Origin: a virus
DNA: 21,562 bases
Direction: 5' to 3' (one strand)
Virus record (IMG/VR): IMGVR_UViG_3300037585_002020
Coordinates: 1 to 21,562 of that record
Every line of letters begins with the position of its first letter. The stretch's first letter is position 1. The notes below the pieces were generated by a model. That model had not been told where the DNA came from, ran no database searches, and saw only the letters and a list, made by a program, of their open reading frames with translations. The translations under genes were made by a program, and so were the position numbers. Of this stretch, positions 5,055 through 15,575 are shown one piece after another.

Positions 5055-5267
5055 ATGGAATATGAACTAATTGCCTTAGGGGTAGCTATGGTGTCCGGAA
5101 TGTTAGGAACATGGATTAAAATGACAAATGAAGTAACAAAAATAAAATCGCGCTTATACTCTTTAGAGAAATCTGAAACTAAAGTAGAGCAGACATTAGA
5201 TATTTTAGTGGAAGGGATGAATGATATAAAAATTTTACTTGCGGAACGAGGAATTAGAAAGAAATGA
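5055..5267 (+). CDS. Membrane-anchored coiled-coil protein (putative holin or lysis accessory)
   Basis: The frame can start at GTG 5034 or ATG 5055. I chose the ATG because it clears the preceding stop by 4 bases and places the hydrophobic segment at the very N-terminus, giving 70 residues. Residues ~5-22 (ELIALGVAMVSGMLGTWI) form one membrane span. The rest is charged and helical with heptad-like spacing, consistent with a coiled coil. The stop overlaps the amidase start as ATGA. One membrane span plus a coiled coil immediately before an endolysin gene is a common layout for phage holin-like or lysis-accessory proteins. Which of these it is, and its topology, remain uncertain. No enzyme motif is present. 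Confidence 0.6.
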   Translation: MEYELIALGVAMVSGMLGTWIKMTNEVTKIKSRLYSLEKSETKVEQTLDILVEGMNDIKILLAERGIRKK

Positions 5268-5692
5268 GAGACTTAAATCGTATTATATTACATTGCTCTG
5301 CTACGCCTGAAGGGAGAGAGGTTAGTGTAGAGACTATCCGAGCATGGCATGTTGACCCCCCTCCACAAGGGCATGGATGGTCCGATATAGGATATCATTA
5401 CGTTATTCACCTTGATGGGAAAACAGAGATAGGGAGGCCCGTAGAGATACAAGGAGCTCATACTTCCGGAGAGAATGAAGATTCCATCGGAATTTGTTAT
5501 ATCGGTGGTGTAGACGCCTCTAATGACCCCAAAGACACCATGACAGTATTACAAGAAATAGCTTTTATAGAAATAGTTAAAAGTTTAAGGCTTACATTTG
5601 GCAAATTATCTATTCATGGTCACAACGAATATTCACCCAAAGCATGTCCTTCTTTCTCAGTAGAGGAGAAGTTCGGCTTCTTAAACACATAA
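5264..5692 (+). CDS. N-acetylmuramoyl-L-alanine amidase endolysin (T7 lysozyme type, Amidase_2)
   Basis: This 142-residue protein closely follows T7 lysozyme in layout and size. It should cleave the amide bond between N-acetylmuramic acid and L-alanine in peptidoglycan during lysis. Visible landmarks are IILHCSAT with zinc ligand His10, I-G-Y-H with the catalytic Tyr44 equivalent, NEDSIGICYIGG, and H-N-E-Y-S-P-K-A-C-P. The last gives His120, Lys126 and Cys128, with the same spacing as T7 His122/Lys128/Cys130. All zinc ligands and catalytic positions are therefore intact. There is no signal peptide and no separate cell-wall-binding domain, so it needs a holin-type route to the periplasm, consistent with the membrane-protein gene overlapping it by 4 bases. 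T7 lysozyme also regulates T7 RNA polymerase; nothing here indicates that function. Confidence 0.95.
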   Translation: MRDLNRIILHCSATPEGREVSVETIRAWHVDPPPQGHGWSDIGYHYVIHLDGKTEIGRPVEIQGAHTSGENEDSIGICYIGGVDASNDPKDTMTVLQEIAFIEIVKSLRLTFGKLSIHGHNEYSPKACPSFSVEEKFGFLNT

Positions 5693-6668: not shown

Positions 6669-7238
6669 ATGTCTAAGATTAGTACGTATCCTATTGATAG
6701 TAATGTAAATGTTAACGATTATATTATCGGAACCGATAGTGACAATAACAGTATAACAAAAAATTACACTATATCAAGCATTATAGCTCTTTCTCCATAT
6801 GGGGGGATGGCATATATCAATGCGGTGGATACGGCAGGGACATCTGTTACTACATTTGCTTCTCAAGACATTTATTATCCTTTAGAGACTGTCCTTACTT
6901 CTCAAATTGCAAGTGGATGGACGGTAGATGATACTGAGACCAATAGAATTGTTTATGGCAATAGCGCTGTAAAACCTGCTACTATAACCTTTACGGTTAA
7001 TTGTAAGGGTACTGCAGGAGATGTTATAGATTTTGCTATGTATAAGAATGGTACAGAAATTTCAGGTACTGAACAAAAAACAGAGATACCTTCAACGTCT
7101 ACTATACCTGTTATCCTTACCATACAAACTTTACAAAGTTTAGCTGTTAACGATTATTTTGAGGTGTATGCAAAAAACACAAGCGGAACAGACTCGATAA
7201 CTACCACTCACCTTAATGTGGTGGTTCATACTTTATGA
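6669..7238 (+). CDS. Putative virion fibre/decoration protein with jelly-roll-like C-terminus
   Basis: A 189-residue protein in two parts. Residues 1-45 (from MSKISTYPIDSNVNVNDYII, with I-G-T-D-S-D and T-K-N-Y-T-I-S-S-I) match an attachment-type N-terminal motif that I recognise from small tail or head fibres of aquatic phages. Residues ~50-189 are beta-rich, with A-T-I-T-F-T-V and F-A-M-Y-K-N-G-T-E-I segments reminiscent of C1q/TNF-like jelly rolls, which usually trimerise. No catalytic motif, signal or membrane segment is present. It lies among small structural genes and overlaps the next start by ATGA. Likely a head fibre, decoration protein or short tail appendage; the fold assignment is pattern-based and moderate. 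Confidence 0.6.
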   Translation: MSKISTYPIDSNVNVNDYIIGTDSDNNSITKNYTISSIIALSPYGGMAYINAVDTAGTSVTTFASQDIYYPLETVLTSQIASGWTVDDTETNRIVYGNSAVKPATITFTVNCKGTAGDVIDFAMYKNGTEISGTEQKTEIPSTSTIPVILTIQTLQSLAVNDYFEVYAKNTSGTDSITTTHLNVVVHTL

Positions 7239-7465
7239 ATAAAGATATTCGTAAGATATCTATTGGGCCTGATTACAAGGGTGGAGCGATGCATTATATT
7301 GTTGGTCAACCTGTTTTAAATGGAGCGTATAAGATTCACCATATTAGGCATGAACAGGATACCCAATCTATTTTAATTTGGATAGAAAAAGAAAAGACTG
7401 TTGTCTTATGGAAAGAGTTTCGTGAGACGATGCCTATTTCTGTGGAGTACAACATAAACTTTTAA
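7235..7465 (+). CDS. Conserved small protein of unknown function
   Basis: A 76-residue protein beginning MNKDIRKISIGPDYKGGAMH, followed by Y-I-V-G-Q-P-V and alternating hydrophobic strands ending in a Trp-rich stretch (I-L-I-W-I-E-K-E and V-V-L-W-K-E-F). It is likely an all-beta, SH3-like small protein (inference). I recall related proteins beside terminase genes of aquatic phages, without assigned function. Translation is probably coupled at both ends: its ATG overlaps the previous stop (ATGA) and its TAA overlaps the next ATG by one base. No metal-binding or catalytic motif is visible. Confidence 0.6.
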   Translation: MNKDIRKISIGPDYKGGAMHYIVGQPVLNGAYKIHHIRHEQDTQSILIWIEKEKTVVLWKEFRETMPISVEYNINF

Positions 7466-8034
7466 TGAAATCACCTTTCAATTTTATAGTCCAACCTGCT
7501 TTAGGTAGGCGTTACTCCAATACAAAAAAAATTGGAGGGATAGACCTTATTATAAGCACCTCTGAAGAAGATGCTTCAGCCTCTAATCGTGAGGCTATAG
7601 TAAAAGAGTTGCCTATAGGCTATAGTGGTCCTATTAAAGTGGGAGATACTTTACTTGTTCACCACAATGTCTTTAAGTTCTATAATGATATAAAAGGTAA
7701 AAGAAAAAGTGGGAAGAGTTTTTTCCGTGACGACCTTTTTTTTGTGGATACCGACCAATTTTTTCTATATAAACAAGATGGGGTATGGCATTCTCATGAC
7801 CGTTTTTGTTTTGTTAAGCCTATCCCTATAGAAAAATCTTTGTTATCTAAACCCGGCACTGAAGAGCCTCTTATGGGAGTTATGGAATACCCTAATAAGT
7901 ATCTTCTAAGCCAAGGAGTAAATAAAGGGACTAAGATATCTTTTACTCCCGATTCTGAGTATCCTTTTAATATCGAAGGAGAGAAGCTATATAGGATATA
8001 TGACCATCAAATAACTATGGCACATGGAAGCTGA
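7465..8034 (+). CDS. Probable GroES-like co-chaperonin, two-domain
   Basis: A 189-residue protein that reads like a GroES-type beta barrel followed by a second degenerate copy. The first half has a beta start F-N-F-I-V-Q-P (residues 5-11), G-G-I-D (24-27), the barrel signature I-K-V-G-D-T-L-L-V (57-65) and F-F-L-Y-K (99-103), resembling GroES GGI...VKVGDKVL...ILRE. The second half restarts with F-C-F-V-K-P-I-P (114-121), then E-P-L-M-G-V-M, K-G-T-K-I-S-F and L-Y-R-I-Y-D-H-Q-I. The first half has a long loop (residues ~76-90) instead of a compact mobile loop. T4 gp31 is a precedent for phage co-chaperonins in capsid folding, so helping the host chaperonin fold the capsid protein is a reasonable hypothesis. 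Pattern-based, no search made. Confidence 0.55.
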   Translation: MKSPFNFIVQPALGRRYSNTKKIGGIDLIISTSEEDASASNREAIVKELPIGYSGPIKVGDTLLVHHNVFKFYNDIKGKRKSGKSFFRDDLFFVDTDQFFLYKQDGVWHSHDRFCFVKPIPIEKSLLSKPGTEEPLMGVMEYPNKYLLSQGVNKGTKISFTPDSEYPFNIEGEKLYRIYDHQITMAHGS

Positions 8035-8308
8035 AGAGTTAAAAACCAAAATTATTGCCGCAGGGAAAAGGGCGGTGGAGCAGCTTATTAAAGTGGCGCA
8101 AGAAGATATAATTAAACCCGACCCTGAGGATGAATTAGCTGCCGATAGATTGAAGAACGCTGCCGCTACCAAGAAGCTATGCATTTTTGATGCGTTTGAT
8201 ATATTGGCTAAAATTGAAGTCGAGCAAGAAAACCTTAACTTAGCAGGTAGTAACGGAAGTCGCACCGATAGCAAGCAGGGATTTGCAGAACAAAGAGCAA
8301 AAAAATAA
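8024..8308 (+). CDS. Candidate terminase small subunit
   Basis: A 94-residue acidic, helical protein encoded immediately before, and possibly overlapping, the large terminase. Key stretches are E-E-L-K-T-K-I-I-A-A-G-K-R-A-V, D-P-E-D-E-L-A-A-D-R-L-K-N-A-A-A-T-K-K and F-D-A-F-D-I-L-A-K-I, separated by breaks typical of a helical bundle. I recall close relatives of the ADRLKNAAATKK segment directly upstream of large terminases in Bacteroidota phages. Position, size and helical content suit a small terminase subunit, which would recognise phage DNA and stimulate the large subunit. No helix-turn-helix can be shown with confidence. It overlaps the preceding gene by 11 bases in another frame. Confidence 0.5.
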   Translation: MEAEELKTKIIAAGKRAVEQLIKVAQEDIIKPDPEDELAADRLKNAAATKKLCIFDAFDILAKIEVEQENLNLAGSNGSRTDSKQGFAEQRAKK

Positions 8309-8348
8309 ATTATATACGACGGTACATAAGCTAGTTCCGACTAATGTT

Positions 8349-10529
8349 ATGTCCAATAAAAACCGTGCGAAAACATGGCAATACGGATACAATGATAAGT
8401 ATGGCATTATAGTTATTTCTACAACCGGACAGTTAGGAGAGATAATACATGTATCAGGAATAAATATTGGACTTCCTCCTGTACCTACAGACATTCCGTG
8501 TGAGGGGAAAAAAGACCAACAGTATTGGGTGCGTGGCGTCTTACCTAAACCTTTATCTCGGATACCTTCTATATTTCAATGGAATGAAATGCCTGCAGGA
8601 TTTAAAGATAGATGGATAGATTATATAGAGACTGAATTTGACCGTAGAGAACAAGGCCATTGGTTTATGAACAATGGTATCCCTACTTATATAACAGGAG
8701 CTCACTATATGTATTTACAATGGGCTACTATAGATGTAGGGTTCCCGGAGTTCCGTGAAGCAAATAGAGTTTTCTTTTTATTTTGGGAAGCTTGTAAAGC
8801 TGATAATAGATGTTTTGGTATGTCGTACCTAAAAATTAGGCGTTCAGGATTTTCTTTTATGGGGTCTTCTGAGTGTGTGAATGTAGGAAGTTTAGCTAAA
8901 GACTCTAGAGTAGGTATACTTTCTAAAACGGGTGCAGATGCGAAAAAGATGTTTACTGATAAGGTGGTTCCTATATCTAATAGATTGCCTTTTTTCTTTA
9001 AGCCTATACAAGATGGTATGGATAAACCTAAAACGGAGTTAGCCTTTAGGATACCTGCCTCTAAGATTACAAAAAAGAATATGCATCTTTTGTCCGTTAA
9101 CGAGTTGGATGGATTGGATACTACTATTGATTGGAAGAATACAGACGATAACTCTTACGATGGAGAGAAGCTTTTACTTCTTGTCCATGACGAGAGTGGA
9201 AAATGGATTAAGCCTAATAATATCTTAAACAATTGGCGTGTTACAAAAACATGTTTACGTTTAGGAAGTCGTATTATTGGAAAGTGTTTGATGGGTTCTA
9301 CTTCTAACGCTTTAAATAAGGGAGGGAGTAATTTTAAGAAATTATATGAAGACTCAAATACAAGTCTCCGTAGTGGAAATGGACAGACTCGCAGCGGTAT
9401 GTACTCTTTATTTATTCCTATGGAATATAATATGGAGGGATTTATTGACCGATTTGGAGAACCTGTAATTGATACTCCTCTCAAACCTGTTAAAGGGATA
9501 GATGATTTAATGATTAAGTCGGGAGCCTTAGAGTATTGGGAAGCTGAAGTAGAGTCTTTAAAGAACGACCCTGACGCTTTAAATGAATTTTATAGACAGT
9601 TCCCTCGCACGGAGTCCCATGCTTTTAGAGATGAAAGTAAGTCTTCTTTATTTAACCTCACTAAAATCTATCAGCAGTTAGATTATGCTGAAGCTTTAAT
9701 ACGGGAACAGTATGTTACTCGTGGGTCTTTCGGATGGAAAGATGGAAAGATAGATTCTAAGGTGGTGTTCTATCCTGACAATCGTGGGAGGTTTAAGGTA
9801 AGTTGGACTCCTAAAGGTCCCTTACAAAATCAGTGGACAGAACGGAATGGGGTAAAATATCCTGCCAACGAACATATGGGTGCTTTCGGATGTGACTCTT
9901 ATGATATCTCCGGAGTAGTAGGAGGGGGTGGCTCTAATGGAGCGTTACATGGATTAACAAAGTTTCACATGGATGAAGGACCTACTAATGAGTTTTTTTT
10001 AGAGTATGTAGCTAGACCCCAAACCGCAGAGATATTTTTCGAAGAGGTGCTTATGGCTTGTGTATTCTATGGTATGCCTATCCTTATAGAGAATAATAAA
10101 CCTAGATTGCTTTATCACTTTAAGAACAGAGGGTATAGAGGATTTTGTATGAACCGTCCGGATAAGCGTTATAATAAACTTTCAAAAACTGAGCGAGAGT
10201 TAGGGGGTATGCCCAACTCTTCCGAAGATGTTAAGCAAGCTCATGCCTCAGCGATTGAATCGTATATAGAAAAATATATAGGGATAGATTTAGAAGGGTC
10301 ATTTAGAGATTCTGATGAGATGGGAACGATGCCTTTTGTAAGGACATTAGAGGATTGGGCTAAGTTTGATATTAGTAATAGAACAAAGTATGACGCTACT
10401 ATTAGCTCCGGTCTTGCGATAATGGCAACCCAAAAACATTTGTATACTCCCGAACAAAAGCAGAAAAAAATAAGCCTTACCTTCGCTAAGTATAGAAATA
10501 GTGGAACAATAAGCGAAATAATTAGATGA
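8349..10529 (+). CDS. terL: Terminase large subunit
   Basis: The DNA-packaging motor: an N-terminal ATPase plus a C-terminal RNase H-fold nuclease, docking on the portal. Numbering is from ATG 8349 (726 aa). A TTG at 8283 would add 22 residues and overlap the previous gene; the true start is uncertain. An unusual P-loop-like K-I-R-R-S-G-F-S-F-M-G lies at ~162-172, where Phe replaces the usual Lys of GK(S/T). Walker B is L-L-L-L-V-H-D-E with Asp281/Glu282. A coupling-type G-S-T-S-N-A follows at ~316-321. The nuclease triad is likely Asp516 (F-G-C-D-S-Y-D), Glu581 (I-L-I-E-N-N) and Asp682 (K-Y-D-A-T-I). Length and motif wording fit crAss-like terminases as I recall them. The stop overlaps the portal start as ATGA. 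Confidence 0.95.
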   Translation: MSNKNRAKTWQYGYNDKYGIIVISTTGQLGEIIHVSGINIGLPPVPTDIPCEGKKDQQYWVRGVLPKPLSRIPSIFQWNEMPAGFKDRWIDYIETEFDRREQGHWFMNNGIPTYITGAHYMYLQWATIDVGFPEFREANRVFFLFWEACKADNRCFGMSYLKIRRSGFSFMGSSECVNVGSLAKDSRVGILSKTGADAKKMFTDKVVPISNRLPFFFKPIQDGMDKPKTELAFRIPASKITKKNMHLLSVNELDGLDTTIDWKNTDDNSYDGEKLLLLVHDESGKWIKPNNILNNWRVTKTCLRLGSRIIGKCLMGSTSNALNKGGSNFKKLYEDSNTSLRSGNGQTRSGMYSLFIPMEYNMEGFIDRFGEPVIDTPLKPVKGIDDLMIKSGALEYWEAEVESLKNDPDALNEFYRQFPRTESHAFRDESKSSLFNLTKIYQQLDYAEALIREQYVTRGSFGWKDGKIDSKVVFYPDNRGRFKVSWTPKGPLQNQWTERNGVKYPANEHMGAFGCDSYDISGVVGGGGSNGALHGLTKFHMDEGPTNEFFLEYVARPQTAEIFFEEVLMACVFYGMPILIENNKPRLLYHFKNRGYRGFCMNRPDKRYNKLSKTERELGGMPNSSEDVKQAHASAIESYIEKYIGIDLEGSFRDSDEMGTMPFVRTLEDWAKFDISNRTKYDATISSGLAIMATQKHLYTPEQKQKKISLTFAKYRNSGTISEIIR

Positions 10530-12961
10530 AAAATGTCAAAATAAACATATCTTCTGTAGGTTTTCCTAGTCAATTTGTGTCTGATGCAGAGAAAGCAACC
10601 GTAGAATTTGGCTTGCAAATTGGACAGGCTATTCAATATGAGTGGTTTAAAAAGACAAGTAATCAATGTAGATTTTATACCCAAGCACGAGATTTCAATC
10701 GGTTACGTTTGTATGCTCGTGGAGAACAGTCTATTGCAAAATATAAAAACGAACTTGCCGTTGATGGAGATTTATCTTATCTAAATTTAGATTGGACGCC
10801 GGTTCCTATCCTTCCTAAGTTTGTAGATATTGTCGTCAATGGTATGTCTGAGCGCTTATTTAAAGTTAAGGCGTATGCTCAAGATGCTTTGTCTCAATCT
10901 AAGCGGAGTAAGTATCAGAATATGATTGAGGGACAGATAGCGGCTAAACCTATACTTGAGACTATTCAACAGAAAACAGGAGTAGATACCTTTATAATGC
11001 CTCCTGAAGAGTTGCCTACTTCCGATGAGGAACTACAACTGTATATGCAATTGAACTATAAACCTGCTATTGAAATTGCAGAAGAGGAAGCTATCAATAC
11101 TATTTTTGATGAGAATCACTATGAGGATATTAGACGCCGATTAGACTATGACATTATGGTGTTAGGTATCTCAGTAGCCAAACACGAATTTTTACCCGGC
11201 ACAGGAGTTAAACTCTCTTATGTAGACCCTGCAAATGTAGTTTATAGTTATACCGAAAACCCACAGTTTAAAGACTGCTTCTATTGGGGAGAGATAAAAA
11301 CTATACCCATTATTGAGTTGCTAAAGATAGACCCCACTCTTACAAAAGAAGATTTAGAAGAGATTTCTAAAAGTGGTCAAAGTTGGTATGACTATTATAA
11401 CGTTGCTCAGTATTATGATAATGATATCTTTTATCGTGACACTACAACTCTAATGTATTTCAATTATAAGACCACTAAAAAGATTGTATATAAGAAGAAA
11501 AATTTAGAGGGAGGAGGTTCTAGGATGATTGAGAAAGATGACCAATTCAATCCTCCCGTAGATATGATGGAAGAGGGAAGTTTTGAGAAAGTAGAGAAGA
11601 CTATTGATATATGGTATGATGGGGTTATGGTTATGGGGACTAATATCATCCTTAAGTGGGAAGCGGCAGAGAATATGGTTCGACCTAAGTCAGCTTCGCA
11701 GTATGCTATCCCTAACTACGTGGCTTCTGCTCCTCGTATGTATAAGGGAGTTATAGAGTCTTTAACACGTAGGATGATTCCTTTTGCTGACTTGATTCAG
11801 ATAACTCACTTAAAACTACAACAAGTAATATCTAGAGTAGTCCCTGATGGAGTATATATAGATGCTGACGGGTTAAACGAGGTAGATTTAGGAACGGGTA
11901 ATGCATATAACCCTGAGGATGCTTTAAGATTATACTTCCAAACAGGTTCTGTTGTGGGTAGAAGTTATACCCAAGAAGGAGATTATAACCAAGGGAAAGT
12001 TCCTATTACACAGCTTACAGCTAGTTCAGGGGCAGGAAAAGCGCAGATGCTTATACAAAACATGAATCATTATCTGCAGATGATTCGTGATGTAACGGGA
12101 CTTAACGAAGCTCGTGACGGTTCTACTCCTGACCCCTATTCTTTAGTTGGGGTGCAGAAATTAGCAGCTTTAAATTCTAATACCGCTACACGACATATTT
12201 TAGACTCAAGCCTTTATATGTACAGAAGTTTAGCAGAAAGTTTAACGTATAGAGTCTCAGATATCTTACAATATGCTGATTTTAAAGAAGAGTTTGCCAA
12301 TCAGATTGGAAAATATAACGTTAGTATCCTGAAGGATATTAACGATTTATATATATACGACTTTGGAATCTTTATCGAGATAGCTCCTGATGAAGAGCAG
12401 AAAGCACAGCTTGAAGCCAATATCAATATGGCTTTATCTAAAGGAGATATTAATCTTGAGGATGCTATTGATATCCGTGAGATACGAAATCTTAAGTTAG
12501 CTAACCAACTTCTTAAAATGAAGCGTATAGCTAAAGAAGAGAGAGAAGAACAGATGCAAATGCAACAACAAGCTATGCAATCTCAACAAGCTCTTAAATC
12601 TCAAGAGATGGCTCAACAATTAGCTATGCAACAAAGTCAAATGGAGATTCAAGGTAAGATGCAGCTTAAACAAGCTGAGGTAGCTTTCGATATTGAGAAG
12701 ATGAACAACGAGGCTCAACTGAAAGAAAAACTTATGGATGTGGAGTTTAATTATCAGCTGCAATTGCGTGATATGACTGAAACTAATATCCAAACGAGAG
12801 AAGAACAAAAAGAAGCAGCTAAGTCAGATAGGATTAGTCAACAGAATACTCAGCAGTCTAAACTTATCAATCAACGGAAGAATAATTTACCTGCACAGAA
12901 TTTTGAATCTAATGAAGATAGCTTGGATGGGTTTGACCTTGCTCAGTTCAATCCAAGGTAA
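10526..12961 (+). CDS. Portal protein
   Basis: An 811-residue protein directly after the large terminase and overlapping it by 4 bases; size and position fit the long portal proteins of crAss-like phages. It should form the dodecameric ring at one capsid vertex, through which DNA enters and on which the connector rings assemble. Recognisable stretches include W-T-P-V-P-I-L-P-K-F-V-D-I-V-V-N-G-M (about 92-109), K-L-S-Y-V-D-P-A-N-V and R-D-V-T-G-L-N-E-A-R-D-G-S-T-P-D (about 523-538), the last being a conserved portal stem/wing pattern. Residues ~660-780 are extremely rich in Gln, Met, Lys and Glu and should form a long alpha-helical barrel or coiled coil projecting into the head, as in P22 portal. 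The tail end carries N-P-R. No frameshift is seen. Confidence 0.9.
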   Translation: MKNVKINISSVGFPSQFVSDAEKATVEFGLQIGQAIQYEWFKKTSNQCRFYTQARDFNRLRLYARGEQSIAKYKNELAVDGDLSYLNLDWTPVPILPKFVDIVVNGMSERLFKVKAYAQDALSQSKRSKYQNMIEGQIAAKPILETIQQKTGVDTFIMPPEELPTSDEELQLYMQLNYKPAIEIAEEEAINTIFDENHYEDIRRRLDYDIMVLGISVAKHEFLPGTGVKLSYVDPANVVYSYTENPQFKDCFYWGEIKTIPIIELLKIDPTLTKEDLEEISKSGQSWYDYYNVAQYYDNDIFYRDTTTLMYFNYKTTKKIVYKKKNLEGGGSRMIEKDDQFNPPVDMMEEGSFEKVEKTIDIWYDGVMVMGTNIILKWEAAENMVRPKSASQYAIPNYVASAPRMYKGVIESLTRRMIPFADLIQITHLKLQQVISRVVPDGVYIDADGLNEVDLGTGNAYNPEDALRLYFQTGSVVGRSYTQEGDYNQGKVPITQLTASSGAGKAQMLIQNMNHYLQMIRDVTGLNEARDGSTPDPYSLVGVQKLAALNSNTATRHILDSSLYMYRSLAESLTYRVSDILQYADFKEEFANQIGKYNVSILKDINDLYIYDFGIFIEIAPDEEQKAQLEANINMALSKGDINLEDAIDIREIRNLKLANQLLKMKRIAKEEREEQMQMQQQAMQSQQALKSQEMAQQLAMQQSQMEIQGKMQLKQAEVAFDIEKMNNEAQLKEKLMDVEFNYQLQLRDMTETNIQTREEQKEAAKSDRISQQNTQQSKLINQRKNNLPAQNFESNEDSLDGFDLAQFNPR

Positions 12962-14120: not shown

Positions 14121-15575
14121 ATGGCAATAAAAGCCGACCCAACATATGCGTTGCAGCCGAGTGCCCAACAGGTACCGACTGAAACGAATTATATTACCGA
14201 CTTCAATTTCTTGAATCAGTATCTTCCTGATACATACGAGAAAGAATTTGAGCGTTACGGTAATCGAACACTCGCTTCTTTCCTACGTATGGTAGGAGCT
14301 GAGATGCCTTCTAACTCTGACCGCATCGAGTGGGCAGAACAAGGAAGATTGCATATTAAATACATCGACGTAGGAACAGCAGCTTCTGATGGAGATTTAG
14401 AAGCTACCTTCCAAGTTAATGATACAGGAGTGCCTGCTTTCACAGGTTCTAATGGTATTGCTATCAGAAAAGGTCAAACTGTTATGATTGTACAGAATGA
14501 CGGTTCAGGAAGTAATAAAGGTATCGTTACTGATGTAACTGTAGCTGATGACACCTTCAAAGTTGCTTTCTATGAAGCAGCAGGTTTAGTGACTGATGGA
14601 ACAGGAGTAGGTAATGCTGATGTAACTGTCTTTATCTACGGTTCTGAGTTCAGAAAAGGAACAGAGGGAATGGTAGGTTCATTAGAAGCTGATGACATCT
14701 TCTTCAATAACTCACCTATCATCATCAAAGATAAGTATGCAGTATCAGGTTCTGATATGGCACAGATTGGATGGGTAGAGGTTACTACAGAGAATGGAGC
14801 TAACGGATACCTATGGTACCTAAAGTCTGAGCATGAAACTCGTCTTCGTTTCGACGATTACTTGGAGACTGCGATGATTGAAGCCGTTCCTGCAGAAACT
14901 GCATCAGGTGCGTCTAACGCAGGTGCAGGTGCAGGTATGAATGCAAACTATGGAAACAAAGGTTCTGAAGGTGTATTCTACGTAGTTAATAACCGTGGAA
15001 ACGTTTGGACAGGAGGAGCTCCCCAAGATTTAGCGTCATGGGATTCTATCATAAGCAGACTTGATAAGCAAGGAGCTATTGAAGAGAATGTTGTTTTCGT
15101 TAACCGTAACTTCGGATTCCAAATTGACGATATGTTAGCTGCACAAAACTCTTACGGAGCGGGTGGTACTTCATATGGTCTTTTCGATAATGATAAGGAG
15201 ATGGCATTGAACCTCGGATTCACAGGATTCCGCAGAGGATATGACTTCTACAAGTCTGATTGGAAATACCTCAACGACCCAACTATGCGTGGTGGCCTAA
15301 GCCAAACTGCAGGTAGTGGAGCGATTGACGGTCTCTTGGTTCCTGCAGGTTCAACATCTGTATATGACCAAATCCTAGGAAAGAACGCGAAGCGTCCATT
15401 CTTACACGTGCGTTACCGTGCGTCTGAGACGGAAGACCGTCGTTACAAGACTTGGATTACAGGTTCTGCAGGAGGAGCTCGTACTAGCGGTCTCGATGCT
15501 ATGGAGGTTCACTTCCTTTCTGAGCGTGCAGTATGCACTTTAGGAGCGAATAACTTCTTTATTTTCGAAGCATAA
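14121..15575 (+). CDS. Major capsid protein (HK97-fold expected)
   Basis: A 484-residue protein in the canonical position after portal and scaffold-like genes; length suits crAss-like major capsid proteins. It should form the icosahedral shell. Early residues include N-Y-I-T-D-F-N-F-L-N-Q-Y-L-P-D. A likely long spine helix lies near L-R-F-D-D-Y-L-E-T-A-M-I-E-A (about 243-256), followed by a Gly/Ala-rich flexible segment (G-A-S-N-A-G-A-G-A-G-M-N). The C-terminal ~60 residues resemble the capsid P-domain end (V-H-F-L-S-E-R-A-V). Codon choice differs strongly from its neighbours: by my count Phe is TTC 23 times and TTT 3 times, whereas the terminase mostly uses TTT. This signals selection for very high expression. 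It is followed by a strong terminator. Identity comes from context and pattern, not a search. Confidence 0.85.
   Translation: MAIKADPTYALQPSAQQVPTETNYITDFNFLNQYLPDTYEKEFERYGNRTLASFLRMVGAEMPSNSDRIEWAEQGRLHIKYIDVGTAASDGDLEATFQVNDTGVPAFTGSNGIAIRKGQTVMIVQNDGSGSNKGIVTDVTVADDTFKVAFYEAAGLVTDGTGVGNADVTVFIYGSEFRKGTEGMVGSLEADDIFFNNSPIIIKDKYAVSGSDMAQIGWVEVTTENGANGYLWYLKSEHETRLRFDDYLETAMIEAVPAETASGASNAGAGAGMNANYGNKGSEGVFYVVNNRGNVWTGGAPQDLASWDSIISRLDKQGAIEENVVFVNRNFGFQIDDMLAAQNSYGAGGTSYGLFDNDKEMALNLGFTGFRRGYDFYKSDWKYLNDPTMRGGLSQTAGSGAIDGLLVPAGSTSVYDQILGKNAKRPFLHVRYRASETEDRRYKTWITGSAGGARTSGLDAMEVHFLSERAVCTLGANNFFIFEA

Follow-up and report, generated by a model that had tools for sequence, protein, structure and literature searches.

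A predicted tandem GroES-fold protein, probably an assembly co-chaperonin, encoded beside the packaging genes of flavobacterial phages

The best-known tandem GroES proteins are those of plastids and apicoplasts, for which it is debated how an even number of domains is reconciled with the seven-fold symmetry of GroEL. Chloroplast Cpn20 assembles with Cpn10 into hetero-oligomers of seven domains, and GroES concatemers of six to eight domains still function with GroEL (PMC3542282; PMC5780408). Since both kinds of assembly exist and the concatemers work, a lid built from tandem domains is mechanistically feasible.

Phages are known to encode co-chaperonins of their own. Gp31 of phage T4 lacks roof loops and its mobile loop is lengthened relative to GroES, features thought to make the folding cage larger for the capsid protein gp23 of 56 kDa (PMC6318259). 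Among the Pervagoviridae, a chaperonin cpn10 belongs to the eight core genes (PMC8776804). Here we characterize a putative co-chaperonin gene of a marine bacteriophage on a 21.6-kb IMG/VR virus fragment, the whole of which (21,562 nucleotides) is referred to as the window, and compare it with these systems.

The co-chaperonin gene and its packaging block

The ORF at 7465-8034 (+) starts with ATG and encodes a protein of 189 aa. Compared to its closest relative it showed a dN of 0.033 and a dS of 0.39, and dN was far below dS in the comparisons with relatives. As hundreds of relatives are moreover present in IMG/VR, this frame is a real gene under purifying selection. The original prediction had placed it next to packaging genes, and this was borne out by the terminase and portal genes identified downstream. 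The features of the block are as follows.

7235..7465 (+): conserved 76-aa ORF, its stop overlapping the co-chaperonin start; homologue at the same position in phi38:1, Panino, elemoF and MW202828
7465..8034 (+): putative tandem two-domain GroES-like co-chaperonin, 189 aa, 21.6 kDa (phrog_13932, AlphaFold2, Foldseek)
8024..8308 (+): 94-aa ORF in the interval between co-chaperonin and large terminase, overlapping both neighbours (position and overlaps)
8283..10529 (+): terminase large subunit (phrog_6681, E 9.6e-174)
10526..12961 (+): portal protein (phrog_6547, E 2.5e-139)
14121..15575 (+): virion structural protein, 52.6 kDa (phrog_13704, E 6.4e-96)

The order of the block is 76-aa ORF, co-chaperonin, 94-aa ORF, terminase, portal, a 361-aa acidic protein and the 52.6-kDa structural protein. 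The last of these is the probable major capsid protein by position, matching Calle_1, and the acidic protein may be the scaffold. PHROG searches assigned no family to the 76-aa ORF and gave no match for the 94-aa ORF, which is an unproven candidate for the small terminase; the corresponding slot holds a 99-aa ORF in phi18:3 and no ORF in elemovirus or phi38:1. Elsewhere in the window, the product of ORF 5264-5692 resembles, by eye, a peptidoglycan amidase (IILHCSATPEG, HGHNEYSPKACPSF).

Predicted fold of the two halves

An AlphaFold2 model of the full protein, computed from an alignment of 39 sequences, comprised two successive sets of barrel strands (pLDDT 81, pTM 0.77). When this model was compared to the PDB with Foldseek, only chains 7ekq_R and 7ekq_Q reached an E value of 0.001, over about 216 columns. 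A sequence search names them as the Cpn20 co-chaperonin subunit and Chaperonin 23, respectively, both of which are tandem Cpn10 proteins. Ranks 3 to 34 were occupied by GroES/Cpn10 chains, the last of these being T4 gp31. In this model, two GroES-type barrels in one chain are well supported, and the window protein as predicted has the tandem arrangement of Cpn10 domains. Structure prediction had been set beforehand as a check, and it returned a GroES barrel in both halves and no other fold; together with the match to phrog_13932 described below, this upholds the proposal of a tandem two-domain GroES-like co-chaperonin. The structures in BFVD that matched the model included A0A516L046, a longer form of 304 aa, and S0A2F3 from Cellulophaga phage phi14:2, which has 129 aa and is labelled "uncharacterized". 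The two halves were delimited as follows.

7465..7785 (+): first GroES-type barrel, D1, residues about 1-107 (model of D1 alone, Foldseek, profile score)
7498..7590 (+): probable D1 mobile loop, residues 12-42, 31 aa, with GGIDL (motif in relatives)
7786..8031 (+): second GroES-type barrel, D2, residues about 108-189 (hhalign, PDB profile search, Pfam in relatives)
7822..7869 (+): shortened mobile-loop position of D2, residues 120-135, with S-phi-phi only (length compared to relatives)

Modelled alone (residues 1-111), D1 gave a pLDDT of 84.7 and all of PDB ranks 1 to 12 were Cpn10/GroES, with modest E values of about 0.01 and TM-scores of about 0.45-0.5. Its roof segment is shortened and it carries an insertion between strands three and four. 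In hhalign comparisons with Cpn10, the match of D1 was modest at 41 percent (score 26.3; shuffled mean 10.9, maximum 16.6), and D2 reached 95 percent (score 45.5; shuffled mean 10.1, maximum 19.5); for either half, none of 300 shuffles attained the observed score. A search of the PDB with the family profile had GroES as its best match, at profile positions 130-184, although this match was weak (E 0.07). Judged by sequence, D2 comes closer to a canonical Cpn10 than D1 does.

In GroES, the mobile loop is the region between the first two barrel strands. Counted there from the sequences, the loop has 31 residues in D1, 16 in D2 and about 22 in E. coli GroES, in agreement with the predicted long loop in the first barrel. 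Model confidence was lower within the D1 loop (pLDDT 60-64, residues 21-40). The motif G-[ILVM]-x-[LIVF] (G-phi-x-phi) was found in the D1 loop of 42 of 46 relatives and in the D2 loop of 2 of the 46; D1 of the window protein reads GGIDL at this place, GroES GGIVL and gp31 SGLII. The D2 loop differs between lineages: compared to the 16 residues of the window protein it measures 24-25 in phi38:1 and relatives L142 and L143, and it is nearly lost in the elemoviruses, whereas it is long and Cpn10-like in phi38:1, L142, L143 and phi18:3. The segment corresponding to the roof hairpin of GroES is short in D1, in D2 and in the single-domain GroES of these phages, as seen by sequence comparison.

All motifs quoted in the original prediction are present, namely G-G-I-D at residues 24-27, K-V-G-D-T-L-L-V at 58-65, FNFIVQP at 5-11 and FCFVKP at 114-119. 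The view that the second copy mirrors the first held only in part: each half matches Cpn10 above all 300 shuffles, but the direct similarity of D1 and D2 is at chance level. In a profile comparison, the D1-D2 score was no better than that of column-shuffled controls and was reached by 40 of 300 shuffles. This comparison thus gives no sign of a direct repeat or of a recent internal duplication. D1 and D2 are old relatives or separate acquisitions, and as the match of D1 to Cpn10 is modest and the similarity between D1 and D2 is at chance, homology of the halves rests on the fold.

Relatives and their GroES and GroEL genes

The window protein matched phrog_13932, annotated "co-chaperonin GroES", with an E value of 2.9e-22 over residues 1-179 and profile positions 1-191 of 200, and on the strength of this alignment it is a full-length member of that family. 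A Pfam search with the window protein gave no match, its score lying below the curated cut-off of Cpn10 (PF00166); this cut-off was passed by the second half of the homologues in phi38:1, L142, L143 and phi18:3. The profile searches suggested as a check matched GroES families and no unrelated family. Matches to the Pfam family MJ0548_C were taken as chance (best E 0.005; elemoF 13.7 bits, compared to a cut-off of 27), and a search of PDB sequences with the single protein returned chance matches only, to acyl-CoA dehydrogenase.

One scan of IMG/VR yielded 493 relatives, and a scan with a second query confirmed at least 594; the Panino homologue as query retrieved no relatives from IMG/VR. These hundreds of relatives occur in flavobacterial podovirus-type phages. 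In GenBank, relatives occur in Flavobacterium elemoviruses, in Cellulophaga phages phi38:1, phi40:1 and Calle, and in Maribacter phage Panino, where they are labelled chaperonin cpn10, co-chaperonin GroES or hypothetical protein. The homologue in phi18:3 (Pachyviridae), gp096, is a chaperonin cpn10 of 200 aa and was the second match among predicted viral structures. Wherever the flanks of relatives were inspected, the co-chaperonin gene was located upstream of the large terminase gene, and relatives share the gene order upstream of terminase and portal. The cpn10 core gene of the Pervagoviridae is presumably the tandem gene, since the Calle_1 record puts that label on the tandem gene. The gene was also seen on contigs binned in three bacterial MAGs labelled Aliivibrio, TMED88 and Nitrosomonadaceae (L103, L104 and L105). 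A phage-type GroES shares the contig with the gene in at least L103, and all three are probably phage contigs in bacterial bins, not host genes.

The records of relatives were searched with Cpn10 (PF00166) and Cpn60 (PF00118). All 21 records of at least 55 kb contained a separate single-domain Cpn10 above the cut-off and 19 contained Cpn60 (GroEL), counts that do not represent independent events because the 21 records include close relatives of one another. The single Cpn10 and Cpn60 genes usually adjoin each other, apart from the tandem gene. Two phages, phi18:3 (L254, gp096) and G077 (L142), carry the tandem gene and a single Cpn10 but lack GroEL. A universal link of the tandem gene to phage GroEL is thereby ruled out, and since these two phages keep the pair without GroEL, the single-plus-double co-chaperonin pair looks like a retained unit that outlasts phage GroEL.

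Several shorter contigs lacked one or both of Cpn10 and Cpn60, as expected for fragments. The 21.6-kb window is itself a fragment, in which neither a GroEL nor a second GroES was found; the record of its closest long relative (L001, protein 95 percent identical) has both a single Cpn10 and a Cpn60. In Tenacibaculum phage Gundel_1 (L255), a relative by its terminase, Pfam detected no Cpn10 or GroEL.

Proposed function and comparison with known systems

Overall, we consider it likely that the window protein is a tandem GroES-fold assembly co-chaperonin that caps phage or host GroEL. It would serve as the lid of a GroEL ring, or as one component of that lid, with the ring coming from the phage in most relatives and from the host in others, and would bind GroEL through the hydrophobic mobile loop of D1. 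As near-complete relatives usually encode GroEL, the partner may be the phage GroEL as well as the host's. Together with the single-domain GroES of the phage, the tandem protein could form mixed rings totalling seven domains, in the manner of chloroplast Cpn20 with Cpn10; three tandem chains and one single-domain chain, for instance, would make up that number. As chains of two domains cannot add up to seven by themselves, such a mixed ring would be the most likely arrangement, although we propose it tentatively. The short roof and the long D1 mobile loop should result in an open, roomier cage like that of T4 gp31, which would suit the folding of a large capsid protein from the same gene block; we infer the capsid protein to be the client from gene position, the sole support for this assignment.

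Seven copies of the tandem protein might instead build a two-tier homomeric cap, in which seven D1 form a ring with their loops on GroEL and seven D2 are stacked above, plugging or heightening the open roof. In the window lineage, where only D1 has the full G-phi-x-phi loop and the D2 loop is shortened, this would provide one binding site per chain and keep the seven-fold symmetry. However, D2 of phi38:1, L142, L143 and phi18:3 retains a Cpn10-like loop region, and the single-domain Cpn10 in all 21 long records would be left unexplained; we regard this cap as unlikely. The presence of a single-domain GroES that already works with GroEL in these phages would also accord with a tandem protein that is no chaperonin lid, and instead reuses the GroES-like fold as a virion or head-assembly component, for example in the neck. 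The gene is part of the packaging block, immediately ahead of terminase and portal, and barrels of the GroES type are also known from unrelated proteins, alcohol dehydrogenases among them. Nevertheless, conservation of the mobile-loop motif in 42 of 46 relatives and best fold matches to co-chaperonins, both tandem ones included, speak against such a component. Concordantly, the MS/MS-flagged structural proteins in the phi18:3 record include the products at the portal and probable capsid positions and neither co-chaperonin, an absence which constitutes weak negative evidence. A structural role in the virion is thus less likely, and we rate this explanation as quite unlikely.

Retention of the tandem gene in phi18:3 and G077, both without a GroEL of their own, would also be consistent with a decoy that competes with host GroES and draws host GroEL from host clients. 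Most relatives encode their own GroEL, though, and a gene linked to those for capsid and packaging is more in keeping with a role in assembly, leaving the decoy very unlikely. Finally, the best fold matches belong to the 7ekq complex, where Cpn11/20/23 are found on Chlamydomonas ClpP, and this raises the thought of a cap for a ClpP-type protease. Since these chains are co-chaperonins whose structures were, as it happens, determined on ClpP, and no ClpP was found in any of the 15 relatives searched, we attach almost no weight to it.

The preferred reading of a GroEL-capping assembly co-chaperonin can be set against four described systems. With GroES/Cpn10 (PF00166) the window protein shares the barrel in both halves, the motif order and the mobile-loop motif of D1; it differs in having two domains and in scoring under the Pfam threshold. 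The cpn10 genes of phrog_13932, that is of the Pervagoviridae and relatives (phi38:1, Calle, elemovirus, Panino), and gp096 of phi18:3 have the same gene neighbourhood as the gene in the window. The GroES/cpn10 annotation of this family is already known and is not new; a description of a tandem or double phage GroES, or of the single-plus-double pairing, was not found in the open-licence literature searched. Like T4 gp31, the tandem protein is phage-encoded and has a GroES fold, a reduced roof and a lengthened mobile loop, and the capsid candidate of 52.6 kDa is of similar mass to gp23 (56 kDa). Gp31, in contrast, is a single-domain protein that replaces GroES on host GroEL, whereas the protein described here has two domains and is accompanied by a separate GroES and, in most relatives, a GroEL of the phage.

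The best structural match in the PDB, Cpn20 and CPN23 of Chlamydomonas, likewise consists of two Cpn10 barrels joined head to tail in a chain of similar length, and chloroplast Cpn20 occurs alongside a single-domain Cpn10 and a chaperonin of the GroEL type, as the phage tandem gene does in most of the long records. Identity between the phage protein and Cpn20 was 12 percent in the Foldseek alignment, and Cpn20 was not among the PDB matches when the phage protein was searched by phmmer and the family by profile, which gives no sign of sequence kinship with the plastid protein. In Plasmodium Cpn20, mobile loop and roof are reported to be kept in both domains (PMC3542282), whereas the window protein has short roofs and a D2 loop of 16 residues without the G motif. 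The phage tandem protein is probably convergent with plastid Cpn20 and not a member of that family. Going further, it is possible, though less likely than not, that flavobacterial phages independently evolved a chloroplast-like set of tandem and single GroES, which would form an asymmetric seven-domain lid for the capsid protein with a number of mobile loops per lid that varies by lineage. A common phage family with a double lid, a single-domain GroES in all long records searched and usually its own GroEL provides an independent, cultivable test of why double lids evolve and how lids suit large capsid clients. As phi38:1, phi18:3 and elemoviruses are in culture, the question is directly testable in phages whose double lid resembles that of the chloroplast.
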